Below, one piece after another: positions 14,615-58,775 of a stretch of DNA of 64,000 bases (its first letter is position 1; each line of letters starts with the position of its first letter). The stretch is from Lutibacter maritimus (lineage in GTDB: Bacteria; Bacteroidota; Bacteroidia; Flavobacteriales; Flavobacteriaceae): positions 186,001-250,000 of the forward strand of contig NZ_FOZP01000005.1 in NCBI RefSeq assembly GCF_900116115.1. Direction: 5' to 3'. The notes under the pieces are model-generated. The model ran no database searches and was not told the DNA's origin. It saw only the letters and a program-made list of their open reading frames with translations. A program made the translations under genes and the position numbers.

Positions 14615-15037
14615 AATTTTAGGTTTTAAATTTTTTTAATAAAAAAAGCAGCATTTATTTTCAAGTTCTATTTTGTTAAACTTTAATTCATTAATATACG
14701 TACTATATACAAATGCTTTATACGTTATTTTCAGCTGTTATTATTTTACAGTTTTTATAGTACTAATTAATATAATATTTCTTCAATTTGAAATGATTAT
14801 AATCAATTTGATAATGATAAATATTTTTATAAAACAAATTTAAATTGAGTGTTTTGTATTGTAAAAATCAGTATATCAGCAACTTGTTTAGGTCTTTTTT
14901 GTTAAAATTTCAAACTTTTAAAGTAGTGTTAAATGTAAATTGAGCAATATCATTTTATAAAATTTAAACAAACAATAGATTTATATAACTTTAAAAATTC
15001 ATTAGTCTTTGTTTAGTTGTTGTAAAAAGTAAAAGTC
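14615..15037. other. Intergenic region, 423 bp
   Basis: Very AT-rich DNA between divergent genes. The only clear structure is the palindromic box TGAT-TATA-ATCA at 14794-14805. I find no reading frame or terminator. Confidence 0.6.
14793..14806. promoter_or_regulatory. FNR/CRP-like box
   Basis: ATGAT-TATA-ATCAA, the same half-sites as the boxes at 16167-16180 and 17531-17544. It lies between the divergent coiled-coil and hydrolase genes. At the spacing used by the other two promoters I see only poor minus-7 matches on either side, so the target is unclear. Confidence 0.5.
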
Positions 15038-15724: not shown

Positions 15725-15755
15725 GAAACAGGGAAGTCAAAAACTTCCCTGTTTC
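15725..15755. repeat. Hairpin repeat B
   Basis: A perfect 13-bp inverted repeat (GAAACAGGGAAGT with its complement, 5-nt loop), followed on the plus strand by CTCTT. It differs from the hairpin at 15905-15932 by one inserted base pair in the stem and by the loop. It may also terminate the hydrolase gene that ends at 15703. Confidence 0.85.
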
Positions 15756-15904
15756 CTCTTTGAGGCTTAATTTTATAATTTAACCGTTCTTCTTTTTAAT
15801 ATAGGAATGTTACCTTTTTTACAATTAATTCTCCGTTTTGTTAAACTATATTATTAATCCTCAACGTTGTCTAAACTTTCCGTAAGTTAGACCTAAATTG
15901 TTAA

Positions 15905-15932
15905 GAAACAGGAAGTTTTCACTTCCTGTTTC
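15905..15932. repeat. Hairpin repeat A
   Basis: A perfect 12-bp inverted repeat (GAAACAGGAAGT with its complement, loop TTTC), also followed by CTCTT. Same orientation as the copy at 15725-15755, 180 bp apart. I do not see this hairpin elsewhere in the window. Confidence 0.85.
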
Positions 15933-16136
15933 CTCTTGGGAAGATTATTGTAACTTTATGAGATTAAATAACTTTTCTAAATTCTTATTTCAAAATTTAG
16001 AATATAACCAAACTACTCATTTAGTATCTAAACCTTTCCAATTTTATTTACCTAGTATTAACTATAGTAAATTTATTTTTTTATCCAGTGCTTAAAATAT
16101 TAATACATATTTAAAAAGAACTTGTTAATAATGGTA

Positions 16137-16201
16137 TAAATGTATATTGTAAATTATTGGTTTTAAATGATTTGAATCAAATTACTAAATGATTGTTATC
16201 A
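16137..16201 (-). promoter_or_regulatory. Leftward promoter with tandem FNR/CRP-like boxes
   Basis: Boxes TGAT-TTGA-ATCA (16168-16179) and TGAT-TGTT-ATCA (16190-16201) are 22 bp apart, two helical turns. A minus-strand minus-7 element TACATTTA (16144-16137) lies 29.5 bp from the centre of the nearer box. With a start near 16131 the boxes sit at about -42 and -64, the classical positions for CRP/FNR activation. No gene follows, only the hairpin region. Confidence 0.65.
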
Positions 16202-16230
16202 GTAGTTTAAAAAAGTTTTTGTACTTTTTA

Positions 16231-16620
16231 TTATACAAAAACAAAACCATAAGCCATGCTTAATAAAAATATGCCTATTAAAAATAATAACATATACAGT
16301 AATTGAACAAATTTAACATTTACAAAATTTAACCAATTAACTGTGCGTTGTGGAAATATGAATAGAGATAAACCTAGTAATAATGATAACCAACCAATTA
16401 GAGTGATAATTACGGTCCAATTATTTTCCCAAATATTATGAAAAAGAATATTTAATAAACCTATAATTATAGCTATAAATGATGTAATTATTACAAACTT
16501 TTGATCTTTTAAATCCCGAATTATTTGGACAATTCTTTTCGGATTAAAACTTAATATTAAAAAGAAAATAATTAAATACCATCCCCAAAATTTGGCTAAA
16601 AAAGTTGATGTATTTTCCAT
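16231..16620 (-). CDS. Small four-helix membrane protein
   Basis: 129 residues with four hydrophobic segments (about 12-28, 42-60, 68-88, 105-127) and short polar loops. No conserved motif I recognise. It starts 12 bp after the universal stress protein gene and so is the second gene of that operon; the shared promoter carries an FNR-like box. A role in membrane adaptation at low oxygen is only a contextual guess. Confidence 0.75.
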   Translation of the reverse strand: MENTSTFLAKFWGWYLIIFFLILSFNPKRIVQIIRDLKDQKFVIITSFIAIIIGLLNILFHNIWENNWTVIITLIGWLSLLLGLSLFIFPQRTVNWLNFVNVKFVQLLYMLLFLIGIFLLSMAYGFVFV

Positions 16621-16632
16621 AATTATAATTTT

Positions 16633-17475
16633 TTATTCTTCGTGTAAAACTAAAAAGGGAACTTTTGTGTGATAGCTAATTTCTTCAACAGTTGGTTTAA
16701 ATAAAATACGTTGAAAAAAGTTTAAATTTTTTGCAATCATTATAATTACATCAATATTTCTGCTTTCAACAAAACATGCAACACCATCTTCAATTTTATT
16801 GTTTGTAATTTTATGAAAGCTGTGTTTATCTTCTGTAAAATAATTATGTAAATAATGTTTATTTTCTAATTGGTTTCCTGTTAGTGTTTCATCTTTTTTT
16901 GCAATATGTAATATTCTTACAGATGTATTATACATTTCGGCAAATTCCGAAATATTGTTTAAAATTACTGGTTGATAAAAGTTATGAAAATCTGTTGGAA
17001 AAGCAATTTCTTTAGGTGCAATAAATGCAGCGTTTTCTGGAATTATTAAAACTGGACATTTAATTTTAGTAATTAAATCGCCTGTATTTGTACCAATTAC
17101 AACTTCACTAAAACCAGTAGCACCTTTAGTTCCCATAATAATAAGGTCTATTTTTTTTTCTTCAATTTGAGTTTTAACAGCATCAATAAAAAAATCGTAT
17201 TTAGAAATGGTATAAAAATGATGTTCAGGATTTGAATCTAACTTTTTTATTTTTTTTAATAATTTTTCTAATTCTAATTTTGCTTGTTTTAAAACAGTGC
17301 TTTCTAACACATTTGTAGTTGGGTATACTGGAATTTCACCACCAACATAGGTTGGCATTAAGGTTACATGTAAAATGTAAAAATTGCACGATAAATTTTT
17401 GTAAAATTCAAGACCATATTTTATGGCGTTTAATGAATTTTCTGAAAAATCGGTTGGTAATAAAATGTTTTTCAT
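16633..17475 (-). CDS. Universal stress protein, two tandem UspA domains
   Basis: 280 residues from the Met at 17475, which I prefer to the in-frame ATG at 17493 because it gives the standard beginning 'MKNILLPTDFSENS'. Domain one (1-145) has the ATP-binding type end 'IMGTKGATGFSEVVIGT' (G-2x-G-9x-G-S/T like). Domain two (150-280) is diverged and lacks a clear nucleotide motif. UspA proteins help survival in growth arrest and low oxygen. The gene has a full minus-7 box and an FNR-like box, and lies beside a CRP/FNR-type response regulator. Confidence 0.93.
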   Translation of the reverse strand: MKNILLPTDFSENSLNAIKYGLEFYKNLSCNFYILHVTLMPTYVGGEIPVYPTTNVLESTVLKQAKLELEKLLKKIKKLDSNPEHHFYTISKYDFFIDAVKTQIEEKKIDLIIMGTKGATGFSEVVIGTNTGDLITKIKCPVLIIPENAAFIAPKEIAFPTDFHNFYQPVILNNISEFAEMYNTSVRILHIAKKDETLTGNQLENKHYLHNYFTEDKHSFHKITNNKIEDGVACFVESRNIDVIIMIAKNLNFFQRILFKPTVEEISYHTKVPFLVLHEE

Positions 17476-17500
17476 AATGCCTATTAATTTCAATTATACT

Positions 17501-17544
17501 CAAATTTAGAAAGCAAATTGTAATGGCAAAATGATATTAATCAA
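17501..17544 (-). promoter_or_regulatory. Promoter of the universal stress protein operon with FNR/CRP-like box
   Basis: Box ATGAT-ATTA-ATCAA at 17531-17544. The minus-7 element TAAATTTG (17508-17501 on the minus strand) is a full consensus match and no minus-33 TTTG is present. Box centre to first T of the minus-7 element is 29.5 bp, identical to the promoter at 16137-16201. Expected start near 17494 places the box at about -43, an activator position. Confidence 0.75.
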
Positions 17545-17568
17545 GTATAAAATGAAGTTGTAAGTTTT

Positions 17569-18627
17569 TTAATTTATTCGTTTCAGTTTTTCAATATTTA
17601 AAATTTTAATATTTCTACCATCCACATCAATTAATCCTTCTTTTTTAAAATCAGATAATGTTCTAATAAACGTTTCTGTTGCAATACCCGCAATGCTGGC
17701 TAAATCGCTTCGTAATATTTGAACACAAATGTTGGGGTTTGCTTTAATTTTTTCTGAAAATTGTAAAATGGTACTTGCTGTTTTTTTTCTAACAGAACTG
17801 TAGGCCATTTCTAATAAATGCTCTTTAATTTCGTATACATTATCACTTAAATAATCAAATAATTCTAATGTTAAATCGTGATTATTATGTAAAATGGTTT
17901 TTAAATTGTTGTTTGAAATTTTTAATGTATTTGTGTTTTCAATTGCAGCCGCAAACTCTTGATGAGATGTGTTGTTTGAAAATGATGTAAAGCCAAAAAA
18001 ATCGCCTTCTTTTAGAAGTTCAGTTATTAGTTCTTTACCTTGCTCATCTATTTTATATGTTTTAACTATTCCGCTATTTATTAAATAAATGAAGTTAGAA
18101 TTGTCTCCTTGATGGTAAATTACTTCACCTGCATAAAATAGGTGTTCTTCTGCGTTATTTAAAAAGTAATTTTTTAAATGTTCTAAGGTTTTAAGTTCGC
18201 TTTCATTAGTAAGGTTTTGTGTATGTTTATTTTCAATAAGTTGATTTTCATTAACAATGGCTACTTTTGCCAACCTACTTTCTATTGCGCTAAATAATTC
18301 AGATTCATCAAATGGTTTGGTAATGTAATCATCAGCGCCCATATTCATTCCTTTTCTAACATCTTTATGATCTGTTTTTGCTGAAAGAAATATAAATGGA
18401 ATTTGTTGTGTTATTTTTTCTTTTGATAAAATTTGAAGTACACCATAACCATTTAGTTCGGGCATCATTATATCGCAAATAATAACATCGGGCAATTTTG
18501 TTTTTGCTAAATGAACACCAACTTTACCATTTGCAGCAGTTAAAACTTTGTAATTTGCTAATTCTAATAACTCAGCAGTGTTTTCTCTAACAACAGCATC
18601 GTCTTCTATTAATAAAACTGTTTTCAT
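17569..18627 (-). CDS. Response regulator fused to a CRP/FNR-type DNA-binding protein
   Basis: 352 residues. Receiver domain 1-118 with acidic pair E8/D9/D10, phospho-acceptor D52, S82 and K104. A cyclic-nucleotide-like beta-roll follows (about 145-265) but lacks the GE...R-S/T cassette that binds cAMP. The CRP-type helix-turn-helix is at about 285-350; its recognition helix keeps E318 and R322 of the FNR pattern ETxxR. Only two Cys are present, so there is no FNR-type iron-sulfur cluster; control should come from phosphorylation of D52. Directly follows the PAS kinase gene (2-nt gap) and lies beside FNR-like boxes. Functionally it looks like FixJ and FixK merged; this is inference. Confidence 0.9.
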   Translation of the reverse strand: MKTVLLIEDDAVVRENTAELLELANYKVLTAANGKVGVHLAKTKLPDVIICDIMMPELNGYGVLQILSKEKITQQIPFIFLSAKTDHKDVRKGMNMGADDYITKPFDESELFSAIESRLAKVAIVNENQLIENKHTQNLTNESELKTLEHLKNYFLNNAEEHLFYAGEVIYHQGDNSNFIYLINSGIVKTYKIDEQGKELITELLKEGDFFGFTSFSNNTSHQEFAAAIENTNTLKISNNNLKTILHNNHDLTLELFDYLSDNVYEIKEHLLEMAYSSVRKKTASTILQFSEKIKANPNICVQILRSDLASIAGIATETFIRTLSDFKKEGLIDVDGRNIKILNIEKLKRIN

Positions 18628-18629
18628 TT

Positions 18630-19868
18630 TTAAAATTTGTTAGGTAAGCTTATTATAAATGTTGATCCTTCATTAATTTTACTTGAAAAAGTAAGATTTC
18701 CGCCCAAGTTATTAATATGATTTTTTACAATATTTAATCCTATACCTGTACCCGGAATATTTAAAGCGTTGTCGGCTCTAAAGTATCTGCTGCATATAAA
18801 TTTTTGAGCATATTCTGGAATGCCAATTCCGGTATCAATTATTTTAAATTCTATAACAGCATTTTTTTCAGAAACTTCTAAAATTATGGTACTGTTTTCA
18901 GGAGAATATTTTATGGCATTATTTAAAATATTTGACAATGCTAATTTTAAATATTTTTCATCTTGAGTAATAATAAATTCATCAATATTATTAGGAAATT
19001 GAATATGTTGCCCTTCCTTTAATAACATATTTGCATTGTATACAACTTCATTTATAACTGTGCTTAAATTAAATGAAGTAAGTTTATAATTGATGTTGTT
19101 TGATTCTAATTTTTCTATGGAAAGGAAATCGTTTAAAATGGTATCAAGATATTGTGCTTTATTTGTAATAGTTTTTATGTGTTTTTCTCTATTTTGCTGT
19201 TGTTCAGTTAATTGATATTTGTTTAATAACATTGATGAAGTTAAAATACCACTTAAAGGTGTTTTAAATTCATGAGAAACCATTGTTAAAAATTTTGATT
19301 TTAATTCATTGAGTTCAATTTCTTTTTGTAAAGATTCTTTCAATTTTTTTTCGGCAGCTTTCCTTTTTTTTATTTCTTTTTTAAAATTTAAGTTTAACTC
19401 TTTTAACTGCGAAATGGTGTTATGAAGATCTGCTGTTCTTTGTTGTACTTTTTTTTCTAATTCAGTATTAATAAAATCTATTCTTCTTTCATTTTCTTTT
19501 CTAACTGAAATATCTATAATTAAAGCTAAGACATATTTTTTATTTTCAATTTTAAAAGGATTTAAACCAATTTCAACAGGAAAATTTTCATTACTTTTTT
19601 TTACACCAGTTAAATTTAAACTATGTGTAATTTTTCGAACACCGTTAAAATTCAAAAAATTATTAAAATGAACCTTATGAATCGCATGCACTTTTTTTGG
19701 AATTAAACAGTTTAATTGGTTGTTGGTTAATTCACCTTTTTTATAACCAAACATTTTTTCTACAGGATGATTCGCTGCTACTATAATTTGATTTTCATCT
19801 ACTATAATTACGCCTTCAGGAATTGCTTCAAAAAGAATATTTAATATATGTTTATCTTTATAAAACAT
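18630..19868 (-). CDS. PAS-domain histidine kinase
   Basis: 412 residues, soluble: no membrane segment. PAS domain at 10-125, a coiled coil at about 125-190, HisKA with phospho-accepting H199 ('MVSHEFKTPLSG'), then the ATPase domain with N-box 'NILNNAIKYS', G1 'DTGIGI' and G2 'GTGIGL'. In the PAS domain, the stretch 57-71 ('PKKVHAIHKVHFNNF') aligns with the heme-binding helix of FixL, with H64 at the heme-His position; His there is also common in heme-free PAS domains. First gene of a two-gene operon with the receiver-CRP regulator. Oxygen or redox sensing is plausible but unproven. Confidence 0.9.
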   Translation of the reverse strand: MFYKDKHILNILFEAIPEGVIIVDENQIIVAANHPVEKMFGYKKGELTNNQLNCLIPKKVHAIHKVHFNNFLNFNGVRKITHSLNLTGVKKSNENFPVEIGLNPFKIENKKYVLALIIDISVRKENERRIDFINTELEKKVQQRTADLHNTISQLKELNLNFKKEIKKRKAAEKKLKESLQKEIELNELKSKFLTMVSHEFKTPLSGILTSSMLLNKYQLTEQQQNREKHIKTITNKAQYLDTILNDFLSIEKLESNNINYKLTSFNLSTVINEVVYNANMLLKEGQHIQFPNNIDEFIITQDEKYLKLALSNILNNAIKYSPENSTIILEVSEKNAVIEFKIIDTGIGIPEYAQKFICSRYFRADNALNIPGTGIGLNIVKNHINNLGGNLTFSSKINEGSTFIISLPNKF

Positions 19869-56800: not shown

Positions 56801-58775
56801 TTGCATTTGCAACATATTGACCATTTTTAATGGTCCCATCAATCTTTATATTCTCGTAATTATACGCATTATATTGAACTTTCTCAATTTTTGAAGTCAG
56901 CGTTGCATTTGCTATTTCTGGCTTCAAACTCTCACCTTTAATAATAGCATTTGCAGTTACTTTTCCGAATTGATTATTTTTTAGAAATATGCCTAAATCG
57001 AAATTTTTAACTGTTGCATTGGCTTCATATTTTTCGTTATTTTTTTGGGCGCTATCAAAAGTAGCTTGGATATTTGCATTTCCCAGAGAACTAATAAGTG
57101 CTAAATCGGTTTCAAAAGAAAGCATATTTCCTTTAAAATTTCCTTTTAAATTTATTTTTTTAGGTAATTGAATGTTAGTTGGAATGGTCTTTTTAGGAGC
57201 GAATGCATACACATTTTTTGAAGTACTTTCAAAGTTTATGATGTTAATATCATAGATGCTTTTTTTAATACTTGGAAGTCCTGTAACGGTTCCATTTAAA
57301 TCTACTTTTGTATTTCCTAAACCATTGGCATTAAATTTTTTGATATTTAAATTATCTAGTTTTCCTTTAATTTTGGCATTAAAGTTTACAATTGCGTTGG
57401 AATAATGTTTAAAAATATCATTTGAATTCAGTTGAGGAACCAATAATAAAGCATCTTTAAATCCAATTTTACTATCCTTTAAATCGGTATCTAAAATGAT
57501 GTTTTCAGGATTTTTTGTAATTGATTCTAACGATGGGTAGGTAGCAATCACATAATTTTGCAACGTTGTTTGAGGTGTTTTTAAATATAAATTTTTTAGT
57601 GAAGCACCTTTATCTGTATAATTAAAATCTGTAGCAAGTGCCTGTAACTCAAAACCACTTTCTTCCTTAAAAACAAATGAATCAATAGTTCCGCTATAAG
57701 CATTTTCATCTAAGGAGATAGAGTTTCCTTTAAATGCTAAATCACTTAAATTTAAATGATTATAATCAATACCTTTTTCAGTTTTGTTAAAATTATTGTT
57801 GTTAAAAGCGAAATTAAAATCGTAAACAATTAGGTCATCAACATCAATTTTCCAAGGAAAAATAGCAGTGTTTTTAGTAGTTTCTTTTGAAGTTTTAACT
57901 GTTTTGCCTAAAGTAAATTCACCGTTGGTTTTGTTTAATTCTAGTGAATTTAAAACAATAATTTGTTTTTTTAAATCAACTATTTTTACTTTAGTATCTA
58001 GCTTTTCAAATTTTATTTTTGTTGCTATTTGTGTAATAGCATCTTTATAATTTATATCAATATCTTCTAACTGAATATTTTTTAAATTCAGTTTTAAAGT
58101 TTTGTTATCAGCCTCTTTTTCTATTTTTTTGATAGCTTTATTAGTAGCATCAACTAAATCTTGGTCAAAATTTAATTTTAATCCAACAAGATTAATTTCA
58201 GCTATATTGAATGTTAGATTGTTTAAATCAAACTTTTTAATTTCCGTATCAAAGTGATTTATATTTATAGCTAAATTGTTATTAGCAACTGCATCTTTGT
58301 AGCGAAACTTTACAGCGTCAAGATTAATATTTTTGATTGAAACTTCTATTGGTTTTGCTTCACTCTGTAGATTATTTGGAGTTTCAAAAGCTTTAATAAT
58401 GTAATCAAAGTTAAACGCAGAATCTTTATTTACTTCAATATTTGCAGTAACTTTTTCTAGATTAATTGAATTAATTATTACTTTATTATGGAGTAATTGA
58501 TACAAATTTATATCAATTTTTAAGGTTTCTCCGGCCAATAATGTATCTTTTGATTGGTCTTCAAAATAAAAATCGTGTAGAATAATTTTTTTTGGTAAAC
58601 CTATTTCAATGGAACCCACTTCAACCTTTGTTTTAATTTTATTTTCTAAGTATGTAACAGCTTTATCTTTCGCGAAATTTTGAACAAAAGGGATTTGTAA
58701 TGCAAGCACAATTAATAAAAAAAGCGTTACAAATACCAATAGAATTTTTAAAATAACTTTAGCTACTTTTTTCAA
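53808..58775 (-). CDS. tamB: TamB: translocation and assembly module subunit
   Basis: 1655 residues. One N-terminal membrane helix (about 7-27), then an extremely long periplasmic beta-helix made of repeated amphipathic strands, ending in the DUF490/TamB_C domain (about 1250-1640; landmarks 'EIINTTQAKLEQIRRDEDAL', 'NKQVFALLLLNRFIGENPF' and 'LNVGLSKQLLNDRLKVTIGS'). The C-terminus is a basic tail of Lys and Asn. Spans the periplasm and contacts TamL in the outer membrane; a lipid-transport groove role is proposed for this family. Operon with tamL, 14-bp overlap; upstream of tamL in the transcript. Confidence 0.95.
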   Translation of the reverse strand: MKKVAKVILKILLVFVTLFLLIVLALQIPFVQNFAKDKAVTYLENKIKTKVEVGSIEIGLPKKIILHDFYFEDQSKDTLLAGETLKIDINLYQLLHNKVIINSINLEKVTANIEVNKDSAFNFDYIIKAFETPNNLQSEAKPIEVSIKNINLDAVKFRYKDAVANNNLAININHFDTEIKKFDLNNLTFNIAEINLVGLKLNFDQDLVDATNKAIKKIEKEADNKTLKLNLKNIQLEDIDINYKDAITQIATKIKFEKLDTKVKIVDLKKQIIVLNSLELNKTNGEFTLGKTVKTSKETTKNTAIFPWKIDVDDLIVYDFNFAFNNNNFNKTEKGIDYNHLNLSDLAFKGNSISLDENAYSGTIDSFVFKEESGFELQALATDFNYTDKGASLKNLYLKTPQTTLQNYVIATYPSLESITKNPENIILDTDLKDSKIGFKDALLLVPQLNSNDIFKHYSNAIVNFNAKIKGKLDNLNIKKFNANGLGNTKVDLNGTVTGLPSIKKSIYDINIINFESTSKNVYAFAPKKTIPTNIQLPKKINLKGNFKGNMLSFETDLALISSLGNANIQATFDSAQKNNEKYEANATVKNFDLGIFLKNNQFGKVTANAIIKGESLKPEIANATLTSKIEKVQYNAYNYENIKIDGTIKNGQYVANANANDPNLTFVLDAKGVTKSKNPSLDLKLSIDLIDLNKLNFHDNPLKMRGNITANFEDLNPDNLNGTINANDFLVALEQEQFPLDTISIRAVSTVDKDSIILKSQLANGWIVGNYKLSTISNQLMNSVSKYYQLKKEYVQNADTQNLDFKFVINQNSITQKIFPKITELSEITIDGAYNSVNDSIVVNASIPNLHYANNEISNGVLKVNSKDYALYYNLSLGTLKNQQFEIPKTLLVGKLEDNTIDYELNIKDLKNKDKYLISGNFKDHLGTSVIHINPKKLLLNYEDWKIDENNLIKLDKNELLVSNFKIQNNQQSFAVQSENNVANAPITANFKNFKLESLTSIAESNFEIGGIINGETTIKNVTINPLFVADLNIENFKIKKDTVGNLSLKIDNKTANLYNATIKLTGLNNQLNIDGNYNISNQNLNFIVDVETLQMKSLQPFTLDNLKESNGYLNGKLNVTGKTTSPNVNGNIKFNSVGFVVVPLNSKFKMINDEIIFNTNKIIFKDFKLQDENDNPLKINGTLNSQNYTNLGFDLNVIADNFKAVNSNSRDNDLFYGELFLDNNLGIKGTFDNPIIDGTVKINADTRFTIVLPQSDPSIADREGIVEFIDQDQPVLITIEDPTKKITQTEVKGFNVSVNITIDKKAEISIIIDEASGDYLKLQGDAELTGGIDPSGKTTLTGKYEFTGGAYEMNFNLIKRKFDIKPGSYILWTGEPTSGNINITALYKVNASPLDLVINQLSGITTETRNTYKQKIPFETELKMNGELLQPQISFDIVLPEGNNSVSSEIINTTQAKLEQIRRDEDALNKQVFALLLLNRFIGENPFESEAGGTNGAFIAKQSVSKILSQQLNNIANDLINGFELDFDLEATENYTSGEKEERTDLNVGLSKQLLNDRLKVTIGSSFGLEGTPQQNEQATTIAGDITADYLITKDGRYKLRAYRKNNYQVALQGQVIETGVAFIITMNYDKFKELFQNKNKGSKKNKKENENQ

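Follow-up and report, generated by a model that had tools for sequence, protein, structure and literature searches.

A 64,000-nt stretch of the Lutibacter maritimus genome (positions 186,001 to 250,000 of contig NZ_FOZP01000005.1, in an assembly of 3.48 Mb and 20 contigs; hereafter 'the window') encodes a PAS histidine kinase, an adjoining response regulator that fuses a receiver to a CRP/FNR fold (receiver-CRP), a universal stress protein (Usp) and, beyond it, two candidate non-coding RNA units behind a promoter of their own. Comparison with related loci leads us, on balance, to favor the proposal that a family of ~175-nt RNAs in the Flavobacteriaceae is transcribed from class II promoters of a phosphorylation-controlled FNR analogue, which would unite FixJ and FixK in one protein, and that these RNAs form one arm of a low-oxygen dormancy program that also includes universal stress proteins, Hsp20, a ribosome-hibernation factor and a high-affinity oxidase. 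In relatives, the ~175-nt units are a structured RNA family with covarying base pairs, and the promoter geometry that accompanies them is precise. The closest named relatives of receiver-CRP are those of Lutibacter, within the Flavobacteriaceae.

Two promoters of the window, one reading into usp and one reading leftward from 16144, share a single layout. On the minus strand, the FNR-type box of each is followed by exactly 23 nt and then the -7 element (Table 1), which bears out the original prediction, made from the letters of the DNA alone, that the box center lies 29.5 bp from the first -7 base at both. That prediction had also placed four boxes in a cluster, with none in the other gaps of the window that were scanned by eye. 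A pattern scan for TGATNNNNATCA recovered these four positions (14794, 16168, 16190 and 17532) and their clustering within 2738 bp (p = 0.0015 for four of five uniformly placed boxes), plus a fifth box at 57757; the total of five compares with a shuffle mean of 1.68, and at least five were found in 3 of 100 shuffles. The boxes at 16168 and 16190, previously counted as separate, are one tandem site with a spacing of exactly 22 bp, a distance found in 25 of the 32 box pairs lying 12-60 bp apart in the scanned loci and in 7 of 12 pairs when the RNA loci of the R1 search described below are set aside (one pair is counted twice, since locus L177 repeats L035). The claim that neither promoter has a minus-33 element is not strictly true at usp because TTTG sits 18 nt upstream of its -7 element, a -33-like sequence that is not generally retained in relatives. 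The 14794 box has no TANNTT at exactly 23 nt on either strand, and the fifth box (TGATTATAATCA, 57757-57768) has none within 15-31 nt when both strands are checked.

Table 1. Coordinates of the kinase, receiver-CRP, promoter and RNA features, numbered from the first base of the window.
Feature	Position	Strand	Description
Soluble PAS histidine kinase, 412 aa	18630..19868	-	PAS 17-121, HisKA, HATPase_c (Pfam)
Receiver-CRP/FNR fusion response regulator, 352 aa	17569..18627	-	Receiver D52, cNMP-binding fold, HTH helix TETFIR
FNR-type box, usp operon	17532..17543	-	23 nt from -7 element; relaxed form kept in 74/77 loci
-7 element TAAATTTG, usp promoter	17501..17508	-	Sequence
Universal stress protein	16633..17478	-	Two Usp stretches (Pfam)
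129-aa protein	16231..16620	-	No Pfam family; behind usp, before RNA promoter in many relatives
Distal box, tandem site of RNA promoter	16190..16201	-	22 bp from next box
Proximal box, RNA promoter	16168..16179	-	23 nt from -7 element
-7 element TACATTTA, leftward RNA promoter	16137..16144	-	Sequence
Structured RNA unit 1 (candidate)	15905..16077	-	5' hairpin, long rod, GAAACAGGAAG...CTTCCTGTTTC hairpin
Structured RNA unit 2 (candidate)	15725..15897	-	Same architecture in single-sequence folding; ends in hairpin 15725-15755
Fourth box	14794..14805		180 nt upstream of leftward 145-aa gene

This geometry is conserved well beyond the window. In a set of 80 named loci, usp follows receiver-CRP in 77, and when all four-letter inverted repeats with spacers of 0-12 nt (3328 patterns) were counted in the gaps preceding usp, TGAT-N4-ATCA was the commonest (39/77), with every one of the 24 TANNTTTG elements located 0-44 nt behind it lying at 23 nt. 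A relaxed site, TGAY-N4-RTCA followed at exactly 23 nt by TANNTT, is present in 74 of the 77 receiver-CRP-to-usp gaps and in none of the reversed controls, so relatives that keep the regulator nearly always keep the boxes too; their loss was an outcome that the original prediction had named as a ground for abandoning it. With transcription starts that are themselves predicted, this arrangement corresponds to the class II CRP/FNR layout that had been claimed, in which the spacing from box center to core promoter is constant and the box overlaps the -35 region. A box also lies upstream of the kinase gene in 33 of 79 loci, although none was seen there in the window; autoregulation of the kinase is not claimed because these boxes have no fixed spacing.

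The genome-wide motif search proposed alongside the original prediction, with distances to the -7 element, shows that the box is over-represented in the L. maritimus genome, where TGATNNNNATCA occurs 154 times versus 79 for the reversed pattern. The box combined with TANNTTTG at a spacer of 8-38 nt gives 21 matches versus 6 for the reversed control, and in 15 of these matches the two elements are separated by 22-24 nt (in 8 cases by 23 nt), including two inside open reading frames (ORFs; L007 and L010); two of the box-plus-TANNTTTG matches (L016 and L018) are in hairpin-like sequence. Besides the window usp, the genes behind others of these sites include those for a pyruvate-formate-lyase-like (PFL-like) protein, formate-tetrahydrofolate (formate-THF) ligase (FTHFS), a COX1-type oxidase subunit that is behind a ccoS-like ORF and can be read as cbb3, FeoB (behind feoA), HypA, and flavodoxin-domain, fasciclin and DUF47 proteins, a set that looks like an FNR-type regulon. 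Across 90 loci, one of which (L205) repeats another (L041), there are 383 relaxed class II sites versus 0 in the reversed control; 82 of these sites have no ORF of at least 80 aa close behind them, and the products behind the remainder include universal stress proteins (146), a 133-aa protein (44), S30AE/hibernation-factor proteins (13), WG-repeat proteins (10), thioredoxin (9), Hsp20 (6), an oxidase subunit (4), the kinase itself (4) and others, in counts skewed toward the neighborhood of receiver-CRP, from which the loci were taken. The 133-aa protein has no Pfam family and is found behind a class II site in 43 loci (for example, L090:4992-5393 on the minus strand).

The second promoter of the window leads to RNA rather than protein in the reading that we favor. 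Thirteen named relatives carry, at the same place, one to six hairpins that are ~180 nt apart where there are several, located behind the 129-aa gene in 12 and behind usp in L039. Hairpins of this type number 42 in the 80 loci (18 loci) versus 0 in the reversed control, although five of these loci with one hairpin each (L071, L073, L080, L096 and L104) look unrelated. Units of differing sequence fold alike, into a 5' hairpin, a long bulged rod and a final hairpin. In three unit alignments (17, 8 and 6 units) with 49, 45 and 51 pairs, both sides have changed in at least one sequence at 10, 10 and 13 pairs, and a count by helix assigns 8/10, 5/10 and 14/14 both-sided pairs to the 5' hairpin and rod. 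The covariation score was reached by 0 of 500 shuffles in each alignment, and sliding the partners lowers pairing from 92-95% to 34-53%.

A covariance model built from four relatives with the window excluded (R1) detects the RNA in 29 of 120 relatives, a figure that includes the L. maritimus genome and the four source genomes of the model (L035, L036, L038 and L042, corresponding to G273, G261, G270 and G276). A class II site with the 23-nt spacing lies upstream of 27 of 29 arrays and tandem 22-bp boxes in 17; expressed as loci the count is 28/30 because L204 repeats the array of L175, with L192 and L194 as the misses and L195 counted without the hairpin condition. A second model (R2), derived from other genera, detects the RNA in 45 of the 299 genomes searched in the family and in 38 of 203 genera, with 8 of the 45 best scores below 40 bits and at least one R2 source genome (L045, by L219) among the positives. 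All 25 of the R2 loci that were fetched have a class II site within 800 nt upstream (21 within 450 nt; reversed control 0), where L218 and L235 repeat the R1 arrays L193 and L190, L219 and L232 correspond to the named loci L045 and L040, and the RNA is assumed to start at base 1500, an uncertain position in the truncated L229 and L241. The two models differ in sensitivity: G301 and G315 are positive with R1 and not among the R2 positives. Kinship is uncorrected in these upstream-site tallies, in the usp-gap counts above, and in the class-wide site counts and the genus-level Fisher test given below, so p-values serve as a guide only. The -7 elements of the RNA promoters (L175-L204 and L217-L241) are mostly TANNTTAG or TANNTTTA, and usp has TANNTTTG. 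A receiver-CRP paralogue in L215 (G314:C12) is followed directly by two RNA-type hairpin units, each with its own box, at the position taken by usp in other loci.

In the window itself, no ORF of at least 70 aa lies behind the 16144 promoter on its strand before the converging hydrolase gene; there are instead two units that end in GAAACAGG...CCTGTTTC hairpins. Unit 1 scores 43.8 bits against R1 (E 3.5e-6) and unit 2 scores 24.3 bits (E 0.041), the latter no higher than the final hairpin alone can give (~25 bits in L039, minus strand). Two features count against including these units in the family. Without the final hairpin their scores fall to 6.1 and 0.8 bits, in an unfiltered search that can underscore cut matches, and the near-palindromic final hairpin produces reverse-strand matches of up to 46.8 bits. 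The folds point the other way, since without the final hairpin unit 1 has a z-score of -3.18 (equaled by 0 of 200 shuffles) and unit 2 one of -2.65 (equaled by 3 of 200). The unit hairpins are followed by a short U-tract, which leaves the ends of the units uncertain. Because the model score comes mainly from the final hairpin, membership of the window units, which is in part an inference, depends on place, promoter and fold. The same two-hairpin arrangement with tandem boxes is found in G267 (L197), whose receiver-CRP is 89% identical. No other copy was found in the L. maritimus genome with R1 under strict filters at E <= 0.001. The hairpin at 15725-15755 is common to the end of unit 2 and the converging hydrolase gene, and looks like a bidirectional terminator.

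It might be argued that the array consists of repeated terminator-like or REP-like DNA elements behind an operon and is no RNA gene, a view that draws on the tandem repetition of units ending in GC hairpins, the lack of an Rfam match, and how little the covariance model sees in the window beyond the final hairpin. We consider this quite unlikely, since in relatives the 5' hairpin and rod covary as well as the final hairpin, both window units fold better than shuffles when that hairpin is removed, and a promoter of the same geometry lies upstream of 27/29 and 25/25 arrays. In addition, some arrays are not linked to usp and carry their own tandem boxes; these lie near Hsp20, GH130 and BON-domain genes (L210-L212). 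A known Rfam family was also considered for the array and dropped: at the gathering threshold of Rfam 15 the window yields only a tRNA and eight array loci yield nothing, and at a permissive threshold the array gives sub-threshold matches only. That the array encodes repeated small proteins is hardly credible and was discarded; some units do contain ORFs of 51-120 aa, but of the 117 frames in 39 units, 113 are interrupted, and in unit alignment A2 the length of 54 of the 85 internal gaps is not a multiple of three.

The distribution of the structured RNA family follows that of receiver-CRP. Among 38 genomes of the genus, window-type receiver-CRP (E <= 1e-118) is found in 23 of 24 RNA-positive versus 1 of 14 RNA-negative genomes (Fisher 3.5e-8), and in the family receiver-CRP is found in 43 of 45 RNA-positive versus 102 of 254 RNA-negative genomes at a cut-off (E <= 1e-110) that also admits paralogues. 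Exceptions and linkage weaken this association. G450 has the RNA with its site, and G565 has a weak RNA match (33.4 bits), both without receiver-CRP at E 1e-20; G269 has receiver-CRP and no RNA match; and much of the co-occurrence could reflect physical linkage of the RNA to the receiver-CRP locus. In G252 (C211:3915-4984), a receiver-CRP relative is split over two adjacent reading frames, which could be a frameshift or an assembly error.

The receiver-CRP protein has the features expected of a CRP/FNR-type response regulator, as it combines in one polypeptide a receiver with a phospho-acceptor Asp (residues 4-116) and an output composed of cNMP_binding and HTH_Crp_2 (Pfam). D9, D10, D52 and K104 of the receiver are invariant in 26 aligned sequences. 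In the CRP half, GELGLF...ERSAW of CRP aligns with FGFTSF...HQEFA, so the residues that we take to contact cAMP are missing, and the only cysteines of the protein are C51 in the receiver and C301, leaving none to form the iron-sulfur cluster of FNR. These alignments agree with the original prediction on the D52 receiver, the lack of a cAMP pocket and the lack of iron-sulfur cysteines. Phosphorylation is the likely switch of this protein because its CRP half is without cAMP-contacting residues. Moreover, a check of receiver-CRP homologs and their neighbors, suggested at the same time, found the kinase gene adjoining in 79 of the 80 named loci, and the same is true of 28 of 29 distant loci (L116-L144).

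The claim that this circuit is self-contained did not survive. Eight L. maritimus proteins exceed the HTH_Crp_2 cut-off, and three are receiver-CRP fusions, with the helices TETFIR (window), TESLIR and KETLAR; the two others (G000:C8:503674-504726 and G000:C19:582862-583911) are 52% and 50% identical to the window protein. A stand-alone FNR-like protein (L027, G000:C19:282989-283672) near oxidase genes of apparent cbb3 type has the helix TESAIR, near-identical to TETFIR, and aligns with a solved FNR, presumably that of Aliivibrio fischeri, at three of the four cluster cysteines (C4, C7 and a C122-type residue), with Asn at the third N-terminal cysteine. Boxes with class II geometry also occur in genomes that lack receiver-CRP, and the circuit is not closed because the box geometry is spread over an FNR-type regulon, with anaerobic genes among its targets, throughout the genome.

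Counts across 247 genomes of the class suggest that the box is probably recognized by receiver-CRP and the FNR-like protein alike, each being associated with more sites. Exact class II sites total 550 versus 19 for the reversed control, with means per genome of 4.82 where both proteins are present (n = 39), 2.22 where receiver-CRP stands alone (n = 77), 2.34 where the FNR-like protein does (n = 58) and 0.75 where both are missing (n = 73), compared with 0.03-0.10 for the reversed control. In this count the FNR-like protein is defined by a match at 1e-40, and G054 is left out of the receiver-CRP set since its match covered the receiver only.

The alternative is that the boxes belong to the FNR-like protein alone, with receiver-CRP binding another sequence and lying beside usp for other reasons. 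The helix and cluster cysteines of L027, the classical FNR genes behind class II sites, the sites in genomes that have an FNR-like protein and no receiver-CRP, and the retention of the RNA with its site in G450 are all compatible with that view, and the anaerobic targets of the L. maritimus genome may indeed belong to the FNR-like protein. As an account of all the boxes we regard it as unlikely. The FNR-like protein is present in 38 of 38 genomes of the genus, yet the RNA tracks receiver-CRP, and genomes with receiver-CRP only exceed those with neither protein in sites. The best evidence that receiver-CRP itself uses the box comes from five family genomes that have it with no L027 match (none at E 1e-50, or at 1e-25 for G151, so that weaker FNR-like proteins may exist below the cut-off): G151, G290, G310 and G314 keep the usp site and G305 does not, in a comparison that leaves out G345 (receiver-CRP 2e-77, another family) and class-level genomes except G151.

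The input to this system can be approached through the kinase. The solved relatives that best match its PAS domain are DosP (1.3e-10) and FixL, and of the 14 PDB sequences matching the PAS domain alone at E <= 0.001, 13 are FixL or DosP (one presumably so, listed by its former name yddU); the fourteenth comes from an uncharacterised multi-sensor kinase. H64 aligns with the proximal histidine of DosP and, by eye, with that of FixL, which we take to be His200, and it is retained in 75 of 78 aligned relatives; its assignment to the FixL heme-His position in the original prediction thus holds. The distal arginine of FixL stabilises O2. At what we take to be the corresponding position of FixL and DosP, Arg is found in 56 of 80 aligned copies and Leu in 12, and the window PAS has Leu84. 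Taken together, these residues make heme sensing likely for the kinase family and uncertain for the window kinase. Kinase orthologues vary in size, many being near 410, 505 or 626 aa, and those scanned in L041, L045 and L048 have one, three and two PAS domains, respectively.

It is also quite conceivable, if less probable than oxygen sensing, that the kinase senses a non-oxygen ligand or redox state, with H64 serving a structural role and the PAS domain heme-free at least in the window copy. Leu at the distal position of the window and the other copies that share it would fit this idea, as would the further PAS domains of some relatives, and similar PAS motifs are common in kinases for which no heme has been shown. 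Set against it are the predominance of FixL and DosP among the PDB matches, the retention of H64 and of the distal Arg in most aligned copies, and the many low-oxygen genes among the box targets.

A mechanism that would accommodate these observations, and that we judge reasonably probable as a whole, begins with a soluble FixL/DosP-type PAS kinase that responds to a low-oxygen or redox signal and phosphorylates D52 of receiver-CRP. The phosphorylated dimer would then bind TGAY-N4-RTCA boxes located ~41.5 bp upstream of the predicted start, where the geometry is observed and binding is inferred from it, and act as a class II activator. Its local targets would be the usp operon and the leftward promoter, whose two boxes are 22 bp apart and which would transcribe the tandem structured non-coding RNAs; these RNAs, produced while the switch is active, would probably regulate in trans or by binding protein, the weakest step of the proposal. 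The pair would represent one input to an FNR-type low-oxygen and stress-survival regulon and not a closed circuit because the cell has at least one FNR-like protein that shares its box. A phosphorylation-driven FNR analogue paired with a FixL-like kinase is the best, and a partly supported, reading, and from sequence it is probable that low oxygen is the signal and that the switch acts on stress-survival genes, activating them through conserved boxes.

Several known systems resemble parts of this network. FnrS of enterobacteria, which also has an FNR-type box, shares its type of promoter with the array, although by description this one short RNA differs from ~175-nt structured units that occur in tandem, with up to six hairpins per locus. 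The Rfp small RNAs of Flavobacterium psychrophilum come from the same family, Flavobacteriaceae, and by description are likewise structured, Rfp18 having at least three stem-loops, and the main text on these RNAs makes no mention of Fnr or Crp (PMC9723704). A search of openly licensed full texts returned no paper on the receiver-CRP circuit or the RNA family, which is weak evidence of novelty, and little on low-oxygen control in Bacteroidota in the literature open to search; the ~175-nt structured RNA family behind a box promoter is probably undescribed. Conditions for its expression can be predicted because the family comes with a conserved promoter.

The content of the mycobacterial DosR dormancy regulon provides a second parallel, since DosS/DosT-DosR also has a two-component input and, among its targets, usp, Hsp20, thioredoxin, a ribosome-hibernation-type protein and a P-type ATPase. 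DosR is a NarL/LuxR-type protein that recognizes another box, and the DNA-binding module of receiver-CRP is unrelated to it, so the likeness is convergent at most.

The rhizobial FixL-FixJ-FixK cascade is similar in that a PAS kinase with a heme-type His signals to a receiver, in its FNR-type box and in the cbb3-type oxidase among the genome-wide targets. It differs in that FixJ is NarL-type and FixK has no receiver, whereas receiver-CRP joins a receiver at 4-116 to a cNMP_binding and HTH_Crp_2 output, and in the distal Arg that the window PAS lacks. The proposal that the FixJ and FixK steps are merged thus fits the architecture of receiver-CRP, in which a receiver and CRP/FNR module are one protein, and less well the Leu in the sensor.

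Finally, the network has the TTGAT-N4-ATCAA-type box, class II distance and anaerobic targets of FNR from E. coli and A. fischeri, and L027 aligns with a solved member of that group. Unlike FNR, receiver-CRP lacks the cluster cysteines, and its input presumably comes by phosphorylation; the system illustrates a way in which two-component signaling could take the place of an FNR-type protein that senses oxygen directly. From the sequence evidence come a regulator that can be tested, an exactly defined site (TGAY-N4-RTCA, 23 nt, TANNTT) and a list of targets.

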